From: a virus
Reading direction: 5' to 3' (one strand)
IMG/VR virus record: IMGVR_UViG_3300023178_000247
Location: 1 to 25,310 of that record
DNA length: 25,310 bases
Part shown: piece after piece, positions 2,717-25,310 of the stretch
Layout: the number at the start of each line of letters is the position of its first letter
How positions within the stretch are numbered: position 1 is the first letter of the stretch
Position numbers and translations under genes: made by a program
The notes under the pieces: model-generated
What the model was told of the DNA's origin: nothing
What the model saw: only the letters and a program-made list of their open reading frames with translations
Database searches by the model: none

Positions 2717-3151
2717 ATGCAATGGACTTATCAAGGAAAACAAGTTGAAGAAATTCCGCAAGGAGTTGAAGGCTTTGTTTACTTGATAACCAATACTACC
2801 AATAATCGCAAATACATAGGCAAAAAACTAGCCAAATTCAAAACTACCAAGCCACCACTCAAAGGCAAGAAAAACAAAAGACGCGGAACTAAAGAATCAG
2901 ACTGGAGAGACTATTGGGGATCTTCAGATCATTTGATAGCAGACGTCAAGCGATTAGGCCCAGACAAGTTTACTAGAGAAATACTTCACTATTGTCCCAG
3001 CAGAGGCGTACTAAGCTATTTAGAGGCAAAGGAACAATTCGACCGAAGAGTTTTAGAGACAGATGAGTATTACAACGGAATTATTAATGTGCGGGTCGGA
3101 AGTTCCAAAGTATTAAAAGAATATTTACAGGCAAACAAGAACACTGTTTGA
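2717..3151 (+). CDS. GIY-YIG-type endonuclease, small
   Basis: The 144-residue product has a variant GIY-YIG core: GFVYLITN near residues 19-26, then NNRKYIGKK near 30-38. A WRDYWGSS segment follows near residues 63-70, and a glutamate in YLEAKEQFDRR near residues 101-111 matches the usual metal-binding Glu. Such domains make single- or double-strand DNA cuts. In T4-like phages they occur as free-standing homing enzymes (Seg family) and as small nucleases without a separate DNA-binding domain. This protein is at the short end, with no obvious extra binding domain. The start ATG at 2717 has only a weak ribosome-binding site. The stop touches a hairpin and a GC-rich, apparently structured RNA region, which could be linked to its function or target. 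Confidence 0.8.
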   Translation: MQWTYQGKQVEEIPQGVEGFVYLITNTTNNRKYIGKKLAKFKTTKPPLKGKKNKRRGTKESDWRDYWGSSDHLIADVKRLGPDKFTREILHYCPSRGVLSYLEAKEQFDRRVLETDEYYNGIINVRVGSSKVLKEYLQANKNTV

Positions 3152-3167
3152 TCGAGGTTGCTCGATC
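3150..3167 (+). terminator. stop-codon-overlapping hairpin
   Basis: A perfect 7-bp hairpin, GATCGAG-GTTG-CTCGATC, begins in the stop codon of the nuclease gene. There is no T-run after it (CTCCAAG follows). It is therefore either a weak or RNA-processing terminator, or the first helix of the structured RNA that follows. Confidence 0.4.
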
Positions 3168-3480
3168 CTCCAAGATTCTGCGTGAAAGATCGCCGATGGG
3201 TGTGGAGAAGTTCAACAGGCTGTATGCTACAAAAACTCCTTGCAAAGGAACGAAGCGGGAGGTAGCGAAGCGATCCGCAGCGCGGTAAAACGGTTGCGCA
3301 GATTTTCTTCGTGATGTCGACGTAGGTTGGGAAAGGTCAGAGCCCAGTAGCAGAGTCAAACACCTACTTCCGGTCTCGGCTGTGACGAACTCACATGAAG
3401 TTTTCGAGATGATGGAACCGCTGTGTAGGTTCCGTCTGACTGAAACAATCTACATGAAGCATTAGTGCTTCGCACTTAAT
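3168..3480 (+). ncRNA. candidate large structured RNA, family not recognised
   Basis: No convincing gene lies here and base composition is clearly GC-richer than the flanks. Many complementary segments nest without conflict. In the first domain 3177-3184 pairs with 3295-3302 and encloses 3188-3193/3270-3275, then 3226-3230/3262-3266, then hairpin 3237-3241/3245-3249; a side hairpin is 3275-3278/3282-3285. The second domain is 3322-3327/3362-3367 enclosing 3328-3331/3343-3346. The third is 3374-3378/3405-3409 enclosing 3381-3385/3391-3395. Hairpins 3414-3419/3428-3433 and 3464-3468/3472-3476 follow. Two G-U pairs (3183-3296, 3184-3295) would be A-C mismatches on the other strand, favouring + strand transcription. 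I saw no tRNA, tmRNA, RNase P or group I intron signature. Pairings were found by eye. Confidence 0.6.
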
Positions 3481-3496
3481 CATATCAAATAATAAA

Positions 3497-3545
3497 GTGT
3501 TGAGCGCAAGCGAAACACAAATGAGCTTTAGCTCATTTCTTATTA
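3497..3545 (+). terminator. double hairpin, probable terminator, possibly bidirectional
   Basis: Two hairpins stand side by side. The first is GTGTT (3497-3501) with AACAC (3514-3518), capped by GC-GCAA-GC with flanking GA/GA. The second is a perfect 8-bp stem AAATGAGC (3519-3526) with GCTCATTT (3531-3538) and loop TTTA, followed by T-rich CTTATTAT. It would end rightward transcripts from the nuclease/structured RNA. Because the A-rich and T-rich flanks are symmetric, it could also end the leftward transcript of the 3622-3858 gene. Confidence 0.6.
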
Positions 3546-3621
3546 TCTATATACAACATCCATACTAACACTAGGGTTAACAAAACAAAATAAACTATTG
3601 GCTCGCACATCTGATCACTAT

Positions 3622-15102: not shown

Positions 15103-15124
15103 GTTTTATTAGCAATTATAAATC

Positions 15125-15154
15125 AAAAAGGGCGGCTTATGTCGCCCTTTTTTT
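15125..15154 (+). terminator. strong intrinsic terminator after the capsid gene
   Basis: A-run, then GGGCGGC (15130-15136), loop TTAT, GTCGCCC (15141-15147), then seven T. The 7-bp GC-rich stem (one G-U pair) can be extended by A-T pairs. It is the clearest terminator in the window and closes the head-gene unit. Confidence 0.92.
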
Positions 15155-15183
15155 ATGACTTTTTAATCTATTGTGAATACATT

Positions 15184-15193
15184 GATAAATACA
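15184..15193 (+). promoter_or_regulatory. T4-type late promoter
   Basis: GATAAATACA, preceded by TT, shares TTGATAAATAC with the site at 21766. It lies about 30 bases after the capsid terminator and 103 bases before the next ATG, leaving a long structured leader. Confidence 0.65.
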
Positions 15194-15204
15194 TATGTCA
15201 GATA

Positions 15205-15270
15205 GCGAGCCGCAAGGCGGACTTATGCTGAAACCAACAGCGTAGCACCTAGAACGTGCATCGGGCTCTA
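15205..15270 (+). promoter_or_regulatory. structured 5' leader of the MGRPINK gene
   Basis: Three hairpins follow each other: CCGC-AAG-GCGG (15210-15220); a 7-bp stem TATGCTG/CAGCGTA (15224-15230 with 15238-15244, one G-U, loop AAACCAA); and GCAC/GTGC (15245-15248 with 15256-15259, loop CTAGAAC). A possible closing helix GAGCC (15207-15211)/GGCTC (15264-15268) competes with the first hairpin. The ribosome-binding site lies just downstream. No known riboswitch was recognised; mRNA stabilisation or translational control is a guess. Confidence 0.5.
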
Positions 15271-15286
15271 ATAAAGGAGAAAACAA

Positions 15287-15742
15287 ATGGGAAGACCTAT
15301 TAACAAAGATAAAATTGGATACGGTACAGGCCGTATTGCTGTAAGCAGACACAACTTGTCTGGTTCAGAAGCAACAACAGCAGCACATATTGTAAAACAA
15401 ATCGGAGATGCTAAGTTTATGATCAGATTAGATTCTGACGCAACTGGTACATTTTCACCTGCTCCAGGATCAGCAGCAAGTGACACAGTTTGCACACTTA
15501 CAACAGCAGGAAATGCAAGTATGCCAACTGCTTCGTTTAGAATTGATGCAACTGGTTCAGACTCAACTGTATATCAAGTTTCTAAATTAAGAAACAGAAC
15601 TGTACAAATTGAAGGTTCTGCAGGTGGCGCAACTGTTGCTAACGCCGACAACGTAATTTACGGTATTGGTATTGACAACAGCGACGGTGAAAATGCTTCA
15701 GTACCTAACGCAGTACTAAGTGTTAACTTACCTAAGCAGTAA
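15287..15742 (+). CDS. virion structural protein, MGRPINK family
   Basis: The 151-residue product starts MGRPINKDKIGYGTGRIAVS. This N-terminus is a common hallmark of a virion protein in marine T4-like phages, from memory. The rest is rich in small residues and beta strands (AKFMIRLDSDATGTFSPAPG, then PTASFRIDATGSDSTVYQV), ending in VLSVNLPKQ. A role as an abundant head- or tail-decorating protein is plausible given its position after gp23, its own late promoter and its strong AAAGGAGAAAAC start leader, but it is not proven. No catalytic motif is visible. Confidence 0.75.
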   Translation: MGRPINKDKIGYGTGRIAVSRHNLSGSEATTAAHIVKQIGDAKFMIRLDSDATGTFSPAPGSAASDTVCTLTTAGNASMPTASFRIDATGSDSTVYQVSKLRNRTVQIEGSAGGATVANADNVIYGIGIDNSDGENASVPNAVLSVNLPKQ

Positions 15743-17990: not shown

Positions 17991-20900
17991 GTGGCACAAG
18001 TAGGTAGAATATCTGGTCCTTTATTAGTAGCAAATTTAGAACGCAACGGCAACAACCTTGCGTTTAGAAACACACTTGATACTACACAACTGTTATTTTT
18101 AGATGTTGTAAATGGTAAAATAGGTGTAGCAAGAAATGCACCATCAGTAGAATTACACACACAAGGTGATTTAAGAAGCACAGATTTTACAAGTGTATCA
18201 GATGCAGCTATTGCTAATTTTAATATTACAACAAATAATATAAATGTAAACAGCGGAGATATAAATCTTAACGCCGGTTCTGCTATTGTTTTAAGCAATT
18301 TGCAAACAAATAATATAAAAATTACAGACAATACTATCCATACTCTTTCCGATGAAAACATAGTTTTTGACCCTAATGGCACAGGAACTGTAGAAATACA
18401 AGCAAATGCAACTGTGTCAGGTAATGTACATGCAACTGGCAATATTACTTCTGATGGTAATTTAATACTAGGTAATGATGCAAACGATGATGTATTTTTT
18501 AATGCTGATGTCACATCTAATATTATACCTGCAGCAAACAATGTGTACAGTCTAGGTACTAACACAAAAAGATGGAAGTACCTTTGGTCAAGTTTATTAA
18601 ACGGTGAAAGCACAGTTGCAGGTGATGTTAATGTTGGTACTATAGCACCTTTAACTTTAAGACAAGGTAATATTTTTTATGTGTCAACACAAGGTGATGA
18701 TACAAATTCTGGAGACCATCCACAAGATCCTTTTAAAACAATTAAAGCTGCACTAGATGCAGCAGATGCAAGTTCCGCAGGACCTATTACCATTCATGTT
18801 TTTTCTGGAGGATACGAAGAACAAACTCCTTTAGTTGTGCCTTCTAATGTCACTATCAAAGGAGATGATTTTAGAAACACTATTGTTAGACCTGAAAGTG
18901 CTAATCAAAGCGAAGATGTATTTCACTTAAACGGTGAAACCACAATATCAAATATTACAATCAAAGACTTTTATTACGACAGTGGTAATGATACAGGATA
19001 TGCATTTAGATTCGCACCAAATACTGTTATATCTACTAGAAGTCCATATATCCAAAATGTCACAGTAATTACTCAGGGTACAACTACTAGTGCAAGCGAT
19101 CCTAGAGGATTTGCAAGTGGAGACGCAGGTAAAGGAGCACTAATAGATGGAGCAGACGTATTAAGTGCAAGCAATGAAGCAAGTATGTTATTTCACAGTG
19201 CAACATTTATTACACCTGGTGTTGATGCAATAACAATGACAAACGGAGTAAGAGTAGAATGGTTAAACTCGTTTACATATTTTGCTAATAGAGGATTATA
19301 TGCAAAGAATGGTGCAACTGGACATCTAAGCACTGATGGATCTACTGTTCAGTACGGGGCAGAAATTAGAAGCATAGGATCTGCTAGTGTATATGGAAAT
19401 ATAGGTGCTGAAGCAGACGGCAACGATTGTATTATGTATCTTATAGCGCATAACTTTGCTTACATAGGTGCAGGTAAATTTGTTGATAACGATCCAAGTA
19501 GAGCAATACAATCCCAAGAAGTTATAGAACAAAATAGCGGTAAGATTTATCATGTATCACAAGACCACGGCGGAGATTTTAGAGTTGGAGATCAATTTTT
19601 TATTGATTTTGATACTGGACAAACAAGTTTAACACTTACTGCTGCACAGTTTGATAGTTTACAATCACTAACTGTAGCAACAGACGGTGGAGAAACTATT
19701 ATAACACCATCTTTTATAGATGTAGGAAACTTTAGACTTAGTGGTAATACAATAGAAACACTAAGCGGTGAAATGCAAGTATCTGCTGATTCAACTAATG
19801 AAGTTAAATTTTTAGGTGATGTACAATTTCCAAAAAATCTAAGCATTACAGGAAATCTTAGTGTTGGTAGAGAGCTTATAACTATAGGCGACACATTTGG
19901 TGTAGACACGGTTAATTTTGATGCAGACATAAACAGCGATGTTTATCCAGCAACAAGTGGTTATTATAATTTAGGCTCCAACAATAACAAATGGCTTAGT
20001 GGTTATTTTTCTGAATTGAATATAAGTGATGTAAGATTTGTTGATACAACTATAACTACCAATATTAGTAATTCTAATTTAGAATTTATTGCTAACGGTA
20101 CTGGTAGAATTGTACCGGATAGTGATGTTTTGGGTCAACAAGATATGACAGTAAGCGGCAATACAAGTTTACAAAACTTAACTTTATCTGGCAATATAAC
20201 GCCAATCGGAAATTTTTCTATAAGCGGAACTTTCTCAAACACAGGCGACTTGTCATTAACACAAAATTTAAGTGTGCCACAACAAGTGCAATTTGAAAAT
20301 TTTAACATTAATGATAACACTATTCAAACTACAAGTTCTAACAGTGATTTTGAATTGATAGCAAATGGCACAGGTAGTATAGTATTTCCAAACAATAATG
20401 TTTTGTTTGATCAATCAATGGAAGTTAAAGGCACTACAACATTAAGCAACCTAAATATTATCAACACATTTAACACAGACCTTTCAACAGGTAATATTGA
20501 AATATTTGACAATGTCATTACAACTACAGAGTCTAACAGTGATTTAGATTTGAGATATAATGGTACAGGATCAGTAAATTTAGAAAGTATTGGATTCAAA
20601 AGAAATCAAATCAAAAGCAACGAAACAGATGATTCAACAACTTCTACTTTAAATTTAAACGTAAATGATAGTGTTGAACTTACTTCTACTGATGCTTTAG
20701 TTTTACCACAAGGAACAAATGCAGAAAGAAACAATAACAAAGGTGACTTAAGATTTAATAATCAGTTTAATGTTTTTGAATTATACGTAGACAGCACTGT
20801 AGGATTAGGCGGAATATATTCTGATAATTTAGATACAAGAGTAATTGCAAGTGCTACAAATAATCAATTATTATTTACAACCAATAATTCATTACGAGCT

Positions 20901-21746
20901 TCAGTAGACAGTGACGGTGTGAATGCAAACACTTTTAGAGTAGATGATATTTTAATTGATGAAAACAATATAAAAACCACAGAATCAAACAGTGATCTAG
21001 AATTAAGACCATATCCAGAACATACTGTTAGTGGTGATAGATACTATCAATTTACGTCAACTGAAGTTAATCAAGCATCTGCAGGAGCAAATACTGGATT
21101 TTATTTGCAATATGATGCGTCACCAGGTCCTTACACTTACACTTCAAGTTTTGATAGTTCACAAACTTGGGGTATAAATTTTTCTGAATTAGAATCAGGC
21201 ACAAAGTTTGGAATGCCTGGTCGTGTAGTGTTTAATGCAAATGATTATGTAAAAATAGAAAATGACGATATAGTAATTGTATTTCAATATACAGGCACAG
21301 CAACCTTTGGTGGAACCGGAAGAACATTTTACAGACCTTTTACACTCGTATACAGTTCATTAGACACATATGATTTATCAGGTAAAACATTTACAATTAC
21401 TAGAGGAAGTGTTCATACAACTCCTGGCACAGTAATAGTTGATGACATAAAAGTTGACGACAATAGTATTATTAACACAACTAACGATAGCAACACAATA
21501 CTGTCTGCTACTGGTATAGGGTATTGGCAATTTGCAGGATCAGGTGCTGTTAGATTACCAGCAGGAACAGATGCACAAAGACCAAGTTATACACCTGAAA
21601 TTGGATTTTCAAGAGTAAACACAGACTCCGGAGAATTGGAAACTTGGAACGGCACAGAGTGGCAAACAGCGGCTGGAACATTTGATAATATTAGTGTTGC
21701 TGACATGGAAGAAGAAGCTCTTGTGCAGTCATTAATCTATGGTTAA
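17991..21746 (+). CDS. large tail fibre protein with beta-helix domain
   Basis: The 1251-residue product starts at GTG with AGGAG seven bases upstream. Residues 1-55 (VGRISGPLLVANLERNGNNL) match the start of the next gene's product and are probably the virion-anchoring part. A pectate-lyase-like beta helix begins near 226 (FYVSTQGDDTNSGDHPQDPF) and runs to about 525. Elsewhere the shaft is built of repeats of the form D-N-x-I-x-T-T-x-S-N-S-D-x-E-L-x-x-N-G-T-G-S; clear copies are encoded near 18330, 20045, 20310, 20510 and 20965. Towards the end are two LP-x-GT-x-A-(Q/E)-R modules, the last with TDSGELETWNGTEWQTA, and a short tail ADMEEEALVQSLIYG. It probably acts as a host-binding fibre, with the beta helix binding or cutting surface polysaccharide. 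No catalytic residues were identified. Confidence 0.85.
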   Translation: MAQVGRISGPLLVANLERNGNNLAFRNTLDTTQLLFLDVVNGKIGVARNAPSVELHTQGDLRSTDFTSVSDAAIANFNITTNNINVNSGDINLNAGSAIVLSNLQTNNIKITDNTIHTLSDENIVFDPNGTGTVEIQANATVSGNVHATGNITSDGNLILGNDANDDVFFNADVTSNIIPAANNVYSLGTNTKRWKYLWSSLLNGESTVAGDVNVGTIAPLTLRQGNIFYVSTQGDDTNSGDHPQDPFKTIKAALDAADASSAGPITIHVFSGGYEEQTPLVVPSNVTIKGDDFRNTIVRPESANQSEDVFHLNGETTISNITIKDFYYDSGNDTGYAFRFAPNTVISTRSPYIQNVTVITQGTTTSASDPRGFASGDAGKGALIDGADVLSASNEASMLFHSATFITPGVDAITMTNGVRVEWLNSFTYFANRGLYAKNGATGHLSTDGSTVQYGAEIRSIGSASVYGNIGAEADGNDCIMYLIAHNFAYIGAGKFVDNDPSRAIQSQEVIEQNSGKIYHVSQDHGGDFRVGDQFFIDFDTGQTSLTLTAAQFDSLQSLTVATDGGETIITPSFIDVGNFRLSGNTIETLSGEMQVSADSTNEVKFLGDVQFPKNLSITGNLSVGRELITIGDTFGVDTVNFDADINSDVYPATSGYYNLGSNNNKWLSGYFSELNISDVRFVDTTITTNISNSNLEFIANGTGRIVPDSDVLGQQDMTVSGNTSLQNLTLSGNITPIGNFSISGTFSNTGDLSLTQNLSVPQQVQFENFNINDNTIQTTSSNSDFELIANGTGSIVFPNNNVLFDQSMEVKGTTTLSNLNIINTFNTDLSTGNIEIFDNVITTTESNSDLDLRYNGTGSVNLESIGFKRNQIKSNETDDSTTSTLNLNVNDSVELTSTDALVLPQGTNAERNNNKGDLRFNNQFNVFELYVDSTVGLGGIYSDNLDTRVIASATNNQLLFTTNNSLRASVDSDGVNANTFRVDDILIDENNIKTTESNSDLELRPYPEHTVSGDRYYQFTSTEVNQASAGANTGFYLQYDASPGPYTYTSSFDSSQTWGINFSELESGTKFGMPGRVVFNANDYVKIENDDIVIVFQYTGTATFGGTGRTFYRPFTLVYSSLDTYDLSGKTFTITRGSVHTTPGTVIVDDIKVDDNSIINTTNDSNTILSATGIGYWQFAGSGAVRLPAGTDAQRPSYTPEIGFSRVNTDSGELETWNGTEWQTAAGTFDNISVADMEEEALVQSLIYG

Positions 21747-21882: not shown

Positions 21883-24800
21883 ATGGCAGTTGGTCGTATA
21901 TCTGGTCCTCTCTTAAAGTCGAATCTCGTAAGAAACGGGATTGATCTGGCTTTTGAGACGGACTTATTATATTTGGATGTTAATAACCAGCGTATTGGTA
22001 TTAAGACAAGTTCTCCTCAACACGAGTTAGACGTAGTAGGTTCAACAAGAACAACAAATTTAACAGCTACAAATAGTGCAGATCTTGCTGATGTAAACAT
22101 TGTTGGCAACACTATTTCAACTGATCAAGCATTTCTAAATCTAGGCACGCTAGACAACGTTGTTTATCAAAACAAATTGAGAGTAGACAGTATTGATATT
22201 GAAGGCAATACAATAAGTTCTAATGATTCTAATGCAAATATCGAACTAAGACCTAACGGCACAGGAACTGTGCAAATACAGTCAAACATGAATGTATCAG
22301 GTAATTTACACGCAACAGGAAGTATAACAGCTGATGGTGATATAGTATTAGGAGATCAAAATACAGATACAATTATATTTAATGCAGAAATTGCCAGCAA
22401 CATTGTTCCAGATGCAACAAACACTTATCAACTAGGTACTGATCCAGCAACAGGCGGAAGTCAATGGCGAGATATATATGTTAATAACTTTAATGCTTCT
22501 GCTATTACAACAGATGCACTTACTGTAAATGGTATAGACTTAATTAGTAAACACGGCAATATATATTATGTTGCTGAAAATGGCAATGACTCAAATGACG
22601 GTGATCATCCGCAAGCACCTTTTGCAAGTATAAAACATGCACTTTCTCAAGCAACTGACGGCGACACAGTTCATGTATATCCAGGAGAATACACAGAAGC
22701 GTTTCCGTTAACAATTCCTGTAGGTGTCACACTAAAAGGACACAGTATTAGAAGTGTAAATGTTTCGCCGACTACAGAAACAAGATATAACGATGCTATT
22801 TTAGTAAATGGCGAAAGTACTGTAGAAGATCTTACACTGAAAAATTTCTACAGTGGAGGCAATTATTTTGCAATTACAGAAATAGTAGATGCAGACACAT
22901 TCAAAGTAAATGTAGGAACAACTGCTCAAGCACATGCATATGTAAGTGGCGGTACAGTTGACTTTAGCGACAGCACTGCACCTTTGAATGTAAGTTCAGC
23001 TTCTTATAACGAAACTACAGGAGTGTTAACTATCACAACAGATGCTCCACACGACAGTTATGTAGGGCACAGTGTATTCATTTCAAATTTAACATTTAGT
23101 TGTAATGGAGACAATAGAGTTTTTCCAGATAACGGTTGGGGTTTCAGATTTGCAACTGACTTTGAAGTCACTACACGTTCACCATATATTAGAAACGTCA
23201 CAGTAATAACCAAAGGCACTACTCTTACAGCAGATGATCCTAGAGGATTTTTGTCAGGAGATGCTGGCAAAGGTGCTCTTGTAGATGGAGCATATGCGAC
23301 TGCTGACAGTAGAGAAGCAGCAATGTTATTCCATAGCGTGACATTTATTACCCCAGGTGTGGACGGTTTGGTTGCCACTAATGGTGCAAGAATTGAATGG
23401 TTGAACTGTTTCACATATTTTGCTAACAGGGGACTACATGCATTTGATAGCAATGCAGGTTTAGCATACGATGGTAAAACCAAAATTAGATTAAGTGGAA
23501 TAACAGGAACTTTCCAAGCAGGAGATACTGTGACATTTACGTCAACAGATGCATCAACAGTTGTTGCAGTCACAGTCGAAAGTGTAGATAATGGCATACT
23601 AACACTTGATGGTAAAAACACAGACTTGTTAGGTTTTGATTTTACACCTCAAAGCATTAGTGGTGCTCCTAGTGGTGCAAGTGCAACAACTATAGAAAAT
23701 GTTGATGTAAGAGATTTTGGCGCAGAAGTGCGTATGATTGGTAGTGCTAATGTTTATGGTAATTTTGGTTTAGTAGGAGACGGTGAAGGTGTAATTGTTT
23801 ACGCTATTGGACAGAATTTAGCATACATAGGAAATGGCAAAGAAGTTTCAAACGATCCAGAAAGTGTAAATCAAGCAAATGAAGTTGTAGAAACTAATGG
23901 AGCTAAGGTTAGATTTAGTAGTGTTGACCACAAGGGTGATTTCCGCGTAGGTGATTTATTTCATGTAAATCAAGAAGACGGCACAGTTGATTTTGCTGCA
24001 ACTAGTTTGAATATTAGTTTGACTGAAGGAGCAACTTTTACAGATGGAAGTAATACTACTTTTGTAAACGGTGAAAGAATTGATACAGGAAATATAAGAC
24101 TACAAGGTAATACAATAACAACTACAGCTGGAGATCTTATATTAGATAGCACAAGTGATAATATTGCAATTCAAAATAATGTATCTGTTGATGGTAATGT
24201 AGACGTCACTGGAGATGTCACAATAGGAGGAAATATTACACTTGGTGACAGTGGCGATGACAATATACAGATTGTTGCTGGAATAGCATCAGATCTCCGT
24301 CCTAATATTACAAGTAGATTTAGTTTAGGAACAAGTTCACAAACATGGGGTAATTTATTTGTAGATCAAGTTTTTATTGATGATTTAGAAATAAACACAA
24401 ATTACATTAGAACAACTACATCAAATGCTGATCTAGAATTAAGAGCTAATGGTACAGGTAGTGTTGTATTTCCTAATAACGATTTTATTATTTCAAATAA
24501 TTTAGAAGTACAAGGTACATCTAATCTAGGCGATTTGCAAATAAACGGTACAATGTCGCTCACAGGCGATATATCACAAACAGGAGATACTACTATAGAC
24601 GGAAGTGTTTCCGTAGGAACTAATTTAACTGTAGGTGCAAGAGCTGATTTTGAAAATATTTCCATAGCAGGAAACACAATTAGCACACAAGATAGCAATA
24701 GCGATTTAGAACTAATAGCTAGTGGAACAGGCAAGATATACATGCCTAATAATGATGTCTTAATCAATAATAATTTAACTGTTTTAGGTGACTTCAGTTT

Positions 24801-25310
24801 AGCAAACGCTACAAGTTCAGGTACCACATCTGCTAATAAATTTGATACAGGTGACATTGTAATATCACAAAACTTCATTACAACTACAAATAGTAATAGT
24901 GATCTAGAACTTAGAGCTGCTGGTACTGGTAGCATAGTAATAGATGATTTAACTATACAAAGTAATACTATAAGTGCAGTTAATAACCTTGAAATACAAG
25001 CCAATACAATAAACATTGATGGCACAGGTGCTATAAATCTTCCTTCAGGAACTGTTGCACAAAGACCTACAGCGACACCTGGAGCATTTAGATTCAACAC
25101 AGATGATAATTATTTTGAAGGATACAACGGTTCAAATTGGATTAGACTAGACGGTTTGCAGGATTTAGATGGTGATACACGTATAACAGCAGAACTTACT
25201 CCTGGCGCAAATGATGCTACTATTAGATTTTATGTTGAAAACCAAGTAGTTGCTGATATTAACAAAAACAGATTTAATACAAATAGACTAACCGTAGATG
25301 AGATAGAAAT
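21883..25310 (+). CDS. second large tail fibre protein, paralogue of the 17991 gene, 3' end outside window
   Basis: The frame opens at ATG 21883 with AAGGAG upstream and stays open to the window end, 1142 complete codons. The start MAVGRISGPLLKSNLVRNG mirrors the preceding fibre. A beta-helix domain begins near 225 (GNIYYVAENGNDSNDGDHPQ, then APFASIKHAL) and runs to about 690. It includes an extra insert near 330-415 and another near 525-605 that the first fibre lacks. Shared segments include the TRSPYIRNVTVITKGTT and DPRGFLSGDAGKGALVDGA stretches. Shaft repeats with N-G-T-G or A-G-T-G cores are encoded near 22210, 24405, 24675 and 24880. The module LPSGTVAQRPTATPGAFRFN plus FEGYNGSNW lies near 1050. 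Probably a host-recognition fibre made together with the first one. Confidence 0.88.
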   Translation, partial: MAVGRISGPLLKSNLVRNGIDLAFETDLLYLDVNNQRIGIKTSSPQHELDVVGSTRTTNLTATNSADLADVNIVGNTISTDQAFLNLGTLDNVVYQNKLRVDSIDIEGNTISSNDSNANIELRPNGTGTVQIQSNMNVSGNLHATGSITADGDIVLGDQNTDTIIFNAEIASNIVPDATNTYQLGTDPATGGSQWRDIYVNNFNASAITTDALTVNGIDLISKHGNIYYVAENGNDSNDGDHPQAPFASIKHALSQATDGDTVHVYPGEYTEAFPLTIPVGVTLKGHSIRSVNVSPTTETRYNDAILVNGESTVEDLTLKNFYSGGNYFAITEIVDADTFKVNVGTTAQAHAYVSGGTVDFSDSTAPLNVSSASYNETTGVLTITTDAPHDSYVGHSVFISNLTFSCNGDNRVFPDNGWGFRFATDFEVTTRSPYIRNVTVITKGTTLTADDPRGFLSGDAGKGALVDGAYATADSREAAMLFHSVTFITPGVDGLVATNGARIEWLNCFTYFANRGLHAFDSNAGLAYDGKTKIRLSGITGTFQAGDTVTFTSTDASTVVAVTVESVDNGILTLDGKNTDLLGFDFTPQSISGAPSGASATTIENVDVRDFGAEVRMIGSANVYGNFGLVGDGEGVIVYAIGQNLAYIGNGKEVSNDPESVNQANEVVETNGAKVRFSSVDHKGDFRVGDLFHVNQEDGTVDFAATSLNISLTEGATFTDGSNTTFVNGERIDTGNIRLQGNTITTTAGDLILDSTSDNIAIQNNVSVDGNVDVTGDVTIGGNITLGDSGDDNIQIVAGIASDLRPNITSRFSLGTSSQTWGNLFVDQVFIDDLEINTNYIRTTTSNADLELRANGTGSVVFPNNDFIISNNLEVQGTSNLGDLQINGTMSLTGDISQTGDTTIDGSVSVGTNLTVGARADFENISIAGNTISTQDSNSDLELIASGTGKIYMPNNDVLINNNLTVLGDFSLANATSSGTTSANKFDTGDIVISQNFITTTNSNSDLELRAAGTGSIVIDDLTIQSNTISAVNNLEIQANTINIDGTGAINLPSGTVAQRPTATPGAFRFNTDDNYFEGYNGSNWIRLDGLQDLDGDTRITAELTPGANDATIRFYVENQVVADINKNRFNTNRLTVDEIE

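Follow-up and report, generated by a model that had tools for sequence, protein, structure and literature searches.

A predicted noncoding RNA gene with a duplicated word beside a GIY-YIG endonuclease gene of aquatic phages

We analyzed a 25,310-nucleotide (nt) stretch of viral DNA (IMG/VR record IMGVR_UViG_3300023178_000247, positions 1 to 25,310), hereafter called the window, which is a 25 kb fragment of the genome, probably a very large one, of a marine phage; the large genome and contig sizes mentioned below are those of its relatives. The element in question is a noncoding RNA gene, predicted at 3130-3540 on the + strand beside a SegE-like GIY-YIG endonuclease gene. From the stop codon of the latter (3151) up to the next open reading frame (ORF), the DNA is devoid of genes, rich in helices and contains about 51% GC as compared with 36%. 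A preliminary description of the window had proposed at 3150-3545 a gene-free, GC-rich island that would encode an unrecognised large structured RNA, and both the island and the RNA are borne out by homologues and covariation. The gene measures about 410 nt. Its 5' end is approximate, with a conserved AGGCA...ACACTGTTT element preceding the first helix, and probably lies about 20 nt before the start previously given, within the 3' end of the GIY-YIG ORF. Its 3' end is a terminator-like hairpin. No consistent promoter was found ahead of the RNA: an AT-rich ATAGGCA-like context is present but inconsistent among relatives, and TATAAATA is absent from the window. The features of the locus are given below, where group A is one of the groups of related sequences.

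2717-3151, + strand: SegE-like GIY-YIG endonuclease gene (Pfam PF19835 SegE_GIY-YIG, E 7e-35)
3130-3540, + strand: predicted noncoding RNA gene, recognised by homologues, covariation, strand bias and its moving as a discrete unit away from the GIY-YIG gene
3150-3167, + strand: helix P1, GATCGAG/CTCGATC, adjoining the GIY-YIG stop codon
3168-3207, + strand: putative helix P2 region of the 5' domain (3168-3171/3204-3207), read from aligned relatives
3225-3352, + strand: long-range helix Px (3225-3230/3347-3352), 6/6 pairs with compensatory double changes, 87% of cells paired
3236-3261, + strand: hairpin Hc (3236-3239/3258-3261) with invariant GGAACGAAG in its loop, 98.9% paired, 3/4 pairs compensatory
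3265-3312, + strand: variable insert Hd (3265-3270/3307-3312), folded as a hairpin in most relatives
3322-3367, + strand: helix Py (3322-3327/3362-3367), crossing Px, 99% paired, changes few but compensatory
3328-3331/3343-3346, + strand: hairpin Pb, enclosed by Py
3393-3400, + strand: word copy 1, ACATGAAG, its core matching copy 2 in every representative
3411-3436, + strand: hairpin Ha, GATGGAACC/GGTTCCGTC, 99.3% paired in group A, other groups keeping a hairpin with a different sequence
3452-3459, + strand: word copy 2, ACATGAAG, 59 nt after copy 1
3464-3476, + strand: UUC-loop hairpin Hf after word copy 2, found in most relatives with compensatory changes, the local alignment being loose
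3497-3518, + strand: tail hairpin with a conserved TTGAGCG-NN-AGCGAAA motif (3500-3515)
3519-3538, + strand: terminator-like hairpin AAATGAGC TTTA GCTCATTT with a T-rich tail, its stem sequence varying among relatives while the pairing is kept

The fold was checked by covariation among homologues. A hand-drawn model of 43 pairs in 8 helices was laid on 47 divergent group A sequences, with shuffled and slid controls. In these relatives 88% of the cells are paired, versus 81% when shuffled and 32-41% when slid; cells changed on both sides number 165 (56 shuffled, at most 56 slid), and the covariation score reaches 0.26 (0.12 shuffled, at most 0.09 slid). Folding of the RNA is proven by these compensating mutations. 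RNAalifold independently recovered Hc, Py, Pb and Ha. The core is pseudoknotted, since Px and Py cross in the H-type manner, and the RNA as a whole consists of a variable 5' domain, this core and a 3' part with two occurrences of one module. P1 shows covarying variants as well (AATCAAG/CTTGATT, GATCTAG/CTAGATC and GGTCGAG/CTCGACT), which are supportive only because the stems were selected by pairing. The Hd insert spans 18-123 nt in relatives, measured anchor to anchor, with lengths that are not multiples of 3 and a free sequence; its terminal stem has 5.6 pairs as compared with 2.9 when the halves are shuffled, a value attained by none of 2000 shuffles. A further candidate pseudoknot, Pz, GGTCA(3335-3339)/TGACT(3437-3441), was discarded: its pairing is perfect, but it is nearly invariant in group A and does not rise above shuffles across groups.

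Once two loosely aligned helices are left out, the pairs include 125 G-U cells and only 1 A-C cell, so the + strand is the RNA, as had been deduced from G-U pairs in the window. An antisense ORF conserved in the region was rejected on two grounds: the length of the insert does not go in multiples of three, and it is the helices that conservation tracks. The double hairpin seen earlier at the end of the island is also real, being made of the conserved TTGAGCGNNAGCGAAA hairpin and the terminator-like hairpin at 3519-3538; the TTGAGCG-NN-AGCGAAA motif matches at most once per locus and was found in 193 of 476 loci, and GAGCGNNNGCGA matches once in the window, in the tail hairpin. On the other hand, the long-range helices first proposed did not hold. 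Two of them (3177-3184/3295-3302 and 3188-3193/3270-3275) draw on the hairpin insert, which varies among relatives or is missing altogether, and lack conservation. The third (3226-3230/3262-3266) had the wrong partner, with 55% of cells paired versus 85% for the true partner 3347-3351. The folding energy, -101.9 kcal/mol as compared with -98.8 +/- 5.3 for shuffles, gives a z of -0.59 on the + strand, which is not significant, and a z of -1.14 on the - strand. An energy no better than that of shuffled sequence had been named beforehand as an argument against the RNA; this is indeed what we obtained, but it is uninformative here, and the energy test alone would have missed the RNA.

We gathered 80 related viral contigs with the GIY-YIG protein as query. 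In most of them, blastn with the RNA gave matches downstream of the GIY-YIG gene, and the conserved 3' pattern TGACTNAAACAATCTACATGA brought more than 100 further loci, making the RNA common to hundreds of uncultured aquatic phages. No cultured phage carrying it was found by blastn. The exact pattern has two matches in 84,980 bacterial and archaeal genomes, both in one metagenome-assembled genome, of Neomarinimicrobiota (PBPT01), two contigs of which (335 kb and 153 kb; L469 and L470) carry the RNA; as L469 shows the GIY-YIG-RNA order, this bin probably contains phage genomes. The gene order that prevails in 128 loci is gp47, gp46, a small ORF, GIY-YIG and the RNA, then baseplate-region genes, and this single prevailing order indicates that the RNA is inherited in place and does not move. 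A model of its 3' core trained on marine groups (R1), run on phage genomes and on contigs of up to 331 kb, gave a single confident copy in each. For an independent test, a freshwater clade was fetched only via gp46 of Pseudomonas phage PA5oct and played no part in building R1, which detects the RNA in 30 of the 38 freshwater loci searched (best E 2e-6). As judged by these comparisons, the RNA has passed by vertical descent through a clade of T4-like phages of aquatic habitats, several of which have genomes or contigs of more than 260 kb, and the window segment 3130-3540 is a conserved, autonomous noncoding RNA gene of a marine phage.

The most characteristic trait of the RNA lies in its 3' half, where the word ACATGAAG occurs twice in the window. 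The two copies are alike in 75 of 75 representatives, which comprise 11 different word pairs; the match allows for copies of group D that are out of register by one base and for one sequence in which the copies differ at one base (TGATGA/TGATAA). Across lineages the word core reads AGATAA, AGATGA, GCATGA, GAATAA, TGTCAA, TGCCAA, TGTGAA, GGTGAA, ATATGA or TGATRA, and in a permutation over the distinct word pairs none of 20000 shuffles scored as high. The freshwater test set gave the same result, with matching words in 23/23 distinct RNAs and the new words GGATAAT(G) and AGATGAAGT. The repeated module can be written as helix 3' strand-GRYU-N6-7-AUCU-word, with a word of 6-9 nt. Because the flanks of both copies, read from alignments, are also alike (UGRCY-N-AUCU), the 3' half seems to have arisen by internal duplication. 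No consistent complement of the word was found inside the RNA, so its partner probably lies outside.

As to known families, an Rfam covariance search returned nothing credible in the RNA at E<=5 over the window and E<=10 over 3140-3560, and several sister groups are also without an Rfam match at the RNA locus. The earlier statement that no diagnostic motif of a known class is present holds for the window; it fails for relatives at the same locus, which contain the Rfam family Polynucleobacter-1 (RF01718). In sister lineages this family replaces the P2-bearing 5' domain, directly after the GIY-YIG gene (L025, 1465-1611, 107.8 bits; contig of L076, 64.1 bits), whereas its score threshold of 37 bits is not reached in the window. 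A profile made from group A only finds L292 (E 6e-6), L395 (9e-6), L400 (1e-4) and L353 (0.013), all at the syntenic place. L395 is the contig of L076 and L353 that of L025, both of which carry RF01718. Since the group A profile matches their 3' core, and synteny and the tail motif are shared, we regard the window RNA as homologous to the RF01718-carrying RNAs. It is filed with RF01718 because the sister RNAs bear this family as their 5' domain and share the 3' core; by these sequence criteria it is a divergent, larger relative of the orphan family and, by score, not a member. RF01718 itself covers 141 nt of an RNA of 400-500 nt. Polynucleobacter-1 was listed in 2010 (Weinberg et al. 2010, PMC2864571) as a possibly cis-regulatory RNA from Burkholderiales and fresh water, and the available text of that article does not describe the duplicated-word 3' half.

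A tmRNA has been reported in Melnitz phages (PMC9004378); for the present RNA a tmRNA or transfer RNA identity was rejected, as neither ARAGORN nor Rfam detects any. HEARO, the IscB omega RNA and other nuclease-linked RNAs likewise adjoin a nuclease gene, but the neighbour in the window is a SegE-type GIY-YIG protein instead of IscB, and there is no Rfam match. Among cultured phages, the gp46 of the window is closest to those of Sinorhizobium phage Phosso (469 kb) and of the Pseudomonas PA5oct group (287 kb). Downstream of gp46, at a place corresponding to that of the window RNA, these phages have gene-free, strongly folding stretches of 0.9-1.2 kb (Phosso, L428 9440-10400; PA5oct, L427 9190-10500), which are likely large unannotated RNAs. 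The Phosso stretch folds with a z of -5.5 against shuffles. Close to its 3' end, two direct copies of an 11-nt sequence stand 66 nt from each other. Both stretches are two to three times longer than the window RNA and lack the GIY-YIG gene; no sequence model matches them, and the likeness lies in place, folding and direct repeat. The PA5oct record calls short, doubtful ORFs inside the gene-free stretch.

The GIY-YIG gene is a very faithful neighbour. Wherever about 470 nt or more of upstream DNA is available (92 of 92 RNA loci), it lies just upstream on the same strand, and the freshwater set contains 47 loci with both the RNA and a GIY-YIG gene (about 50% identical to that of the window) and none with the RNA alone. 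The reverse does not hold: four freshwater loci have the GIY-YIG gene followed by at least 800 nt, yet the RNA was not detected, and a SegE-like gene is present without the RNA in Melnitz phages. The RNA core is placed about 250-430 nt after the GIY-YIG gene in most loci and lies 1.1-1.3 kb away in eight freshwater ones. In both of the two distant loci examined, the GIY-YIG gene is followed by another protein-coding gene, and beyond the latter the RNA aligns in its full length as one 400-nt block, which makes the RNA a discrete gene and not just a 3' untranslated region (UTR). The intervening gene of about 1 kb (L487, 7988-9000; L494, 7983-8950) possibly encodes a GDSL/SGNH-like hydrolase, as judged by eye. 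The link between the two genes may be one of synteny only, the GIY-YIG gene being a constant neighbour and not necessarily a working partner. The SegE-like family is widely labelled 'NAD synthetase' in phage records and in PHROG 447, apparently a propagated misannotation.

What could be the role of such an RNA? As the lineage-specific word copies always match, the RNA probably grips one partner at two points. We propose, and give an even chance to, an autonomous RNA acting in trans, whose folded core would hold both words in place as a pair of equivalent reading heads gripping one common ligand. The words would read this ligand by base pairing with a phage or host nucleic acid, which seems more probable than a protein, given that close lineages differ freely in the word while its copies stay alike. 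In an infected cell, such binding could sequester the ligand or bring it together, much as a sponge or scaffold with two sites would. Several observations weigh against this proposal. At 6-9 nt the words are short to act as guides; neither the word nor its complement is enriched in five phage contigs, where counts are near expectation; and antisense sites near gene starts in five genomes gave 5 families, none of which occurs in two genomes. Identical words could also be protein-binding sites or be needed at the DNA level instead.

One could assume that the RNA acts in cis, as the 3' UTR of the GIY-YIG messenger, for its stability or for autoregulation by the nuclease binding both words. This would agree with an RNA that in the window starts right at the stop codon of the GIY-YIG gene, lies on the same strand in 92/92 and 47/47 loci with its core mostly 250-430 nt downstream, and has relatives listed as possibly cis-regulatory (PMC2864571). 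We nevertheless consider it unlikely given the eight freshwater loci with a distant core and the intervening gene in the two examined, the more so as a far smaller and simpler RNA would do and the nuclease exists without this RNA in Melnitz phages. Still less likely is an ornate structural RNA that would form multimers or particles as GOLLD and ROOL do, which are likewise large multi-domain noncoding RNAs, often phage-borne. The multi-domain, pseudoknotted architecture and the folding stretches of Phosso and PA5oct would fit, but the window RNA is smaller, has a fixed place beside gp46/GIY-YIG without a tRNA cluster, and matches no Rfam covariance model for GOLLD, ROOL or OLE, and its words form no recurring self-complementary intermolecular contact; the GOLLD/ROOL likeness first suggested is supported by nothing more specific than the notion of a large RNA in a phage.

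A guide RNA for the adjacent nuclease, with the two words directing paired nicks, would account for the strict co-occurrence and for variable words within an invariant scaffold. SegE-like enzymes usually work without RNA, however, the gene occurs without this RNA, the words are very short and synteny of the whole locus also explains the linkage, which leaves such a guide very improbable. We would grant equally little to the idea that the RNA and the neighbouring protein make up an RNA-guided pair, the two identical, lineage-specific words leading the nuclease, or a host factor, to nucleic acid that matches them; if true, such a guide would be built differently from those of CRISPR, TnpB/IscB and bridge RNAs. 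Direct repeats and the place between the recombination genes gp46/gp47 and the virion genes could also suggest a replication origin, a packaging or a recombination site, of which a single strand folds by chance. Such a DNA-level element is more improbable again, as the excess of G-U over A-C cells reveals selection on the + strand as RNA and a terminator-like hairpin closes the unit. The least probable explanation is a remnant of a mobile ribozyme or intron, which had come to mind earlier from the homing-type nuclease and to which a pseudoknot would be no stranger. It is contradicted by a fixed syntenic locus in all lineages, a single copy per genome that lies between genes and interrupts none, core helices kept by compensatory change, the lack of any Rfam match to group I or group II intron families, and a SegE-type gene that occurs without the RNA. 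We thus retain the trans-acting RNA with two equivalent words as our preferred reading.

Elsewhere in the window, the same phage carries a second structured RNA, Rfam freshwater-2 (RF02980, 71 bits, E 2.7e-9), at 15206-15289 (+). It follows closely on a capsid-like gene and ends where the ORF 15287-15742 starts. Nearby, a strong hairpin AAAGGGCGGCTTATGTCGCCCTTTTT at 15117-15182 (-), also at 15115-15229 (+), resembles a bidirectional terminator and explains weak Rfam matches to the small RNAs STnc350, sraA and MicX. Further on, two large paralogous ORFs (17991-21746 and 21883-25308) share a common start (M..VGRISGPLL..NL.RNG) and many repeated ISTTxSNxDLEL.A.GTG units; their products are tail-fibre-like proteins with internal repeats.

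Altogether, an orphan 141-nt Rfam motif becomes the end piece of a much larger RNA gene that is kept vertically in widespread aquatic phages, and folding-energy tests, as a warning, miss RNAs of this sort. The RNA also gains a testable signature, namely two identical words that change together. The ligand of these words, once found, would reveal the function of large noncoding RNAs of phages, a question shared by GOLLD and ROOL.
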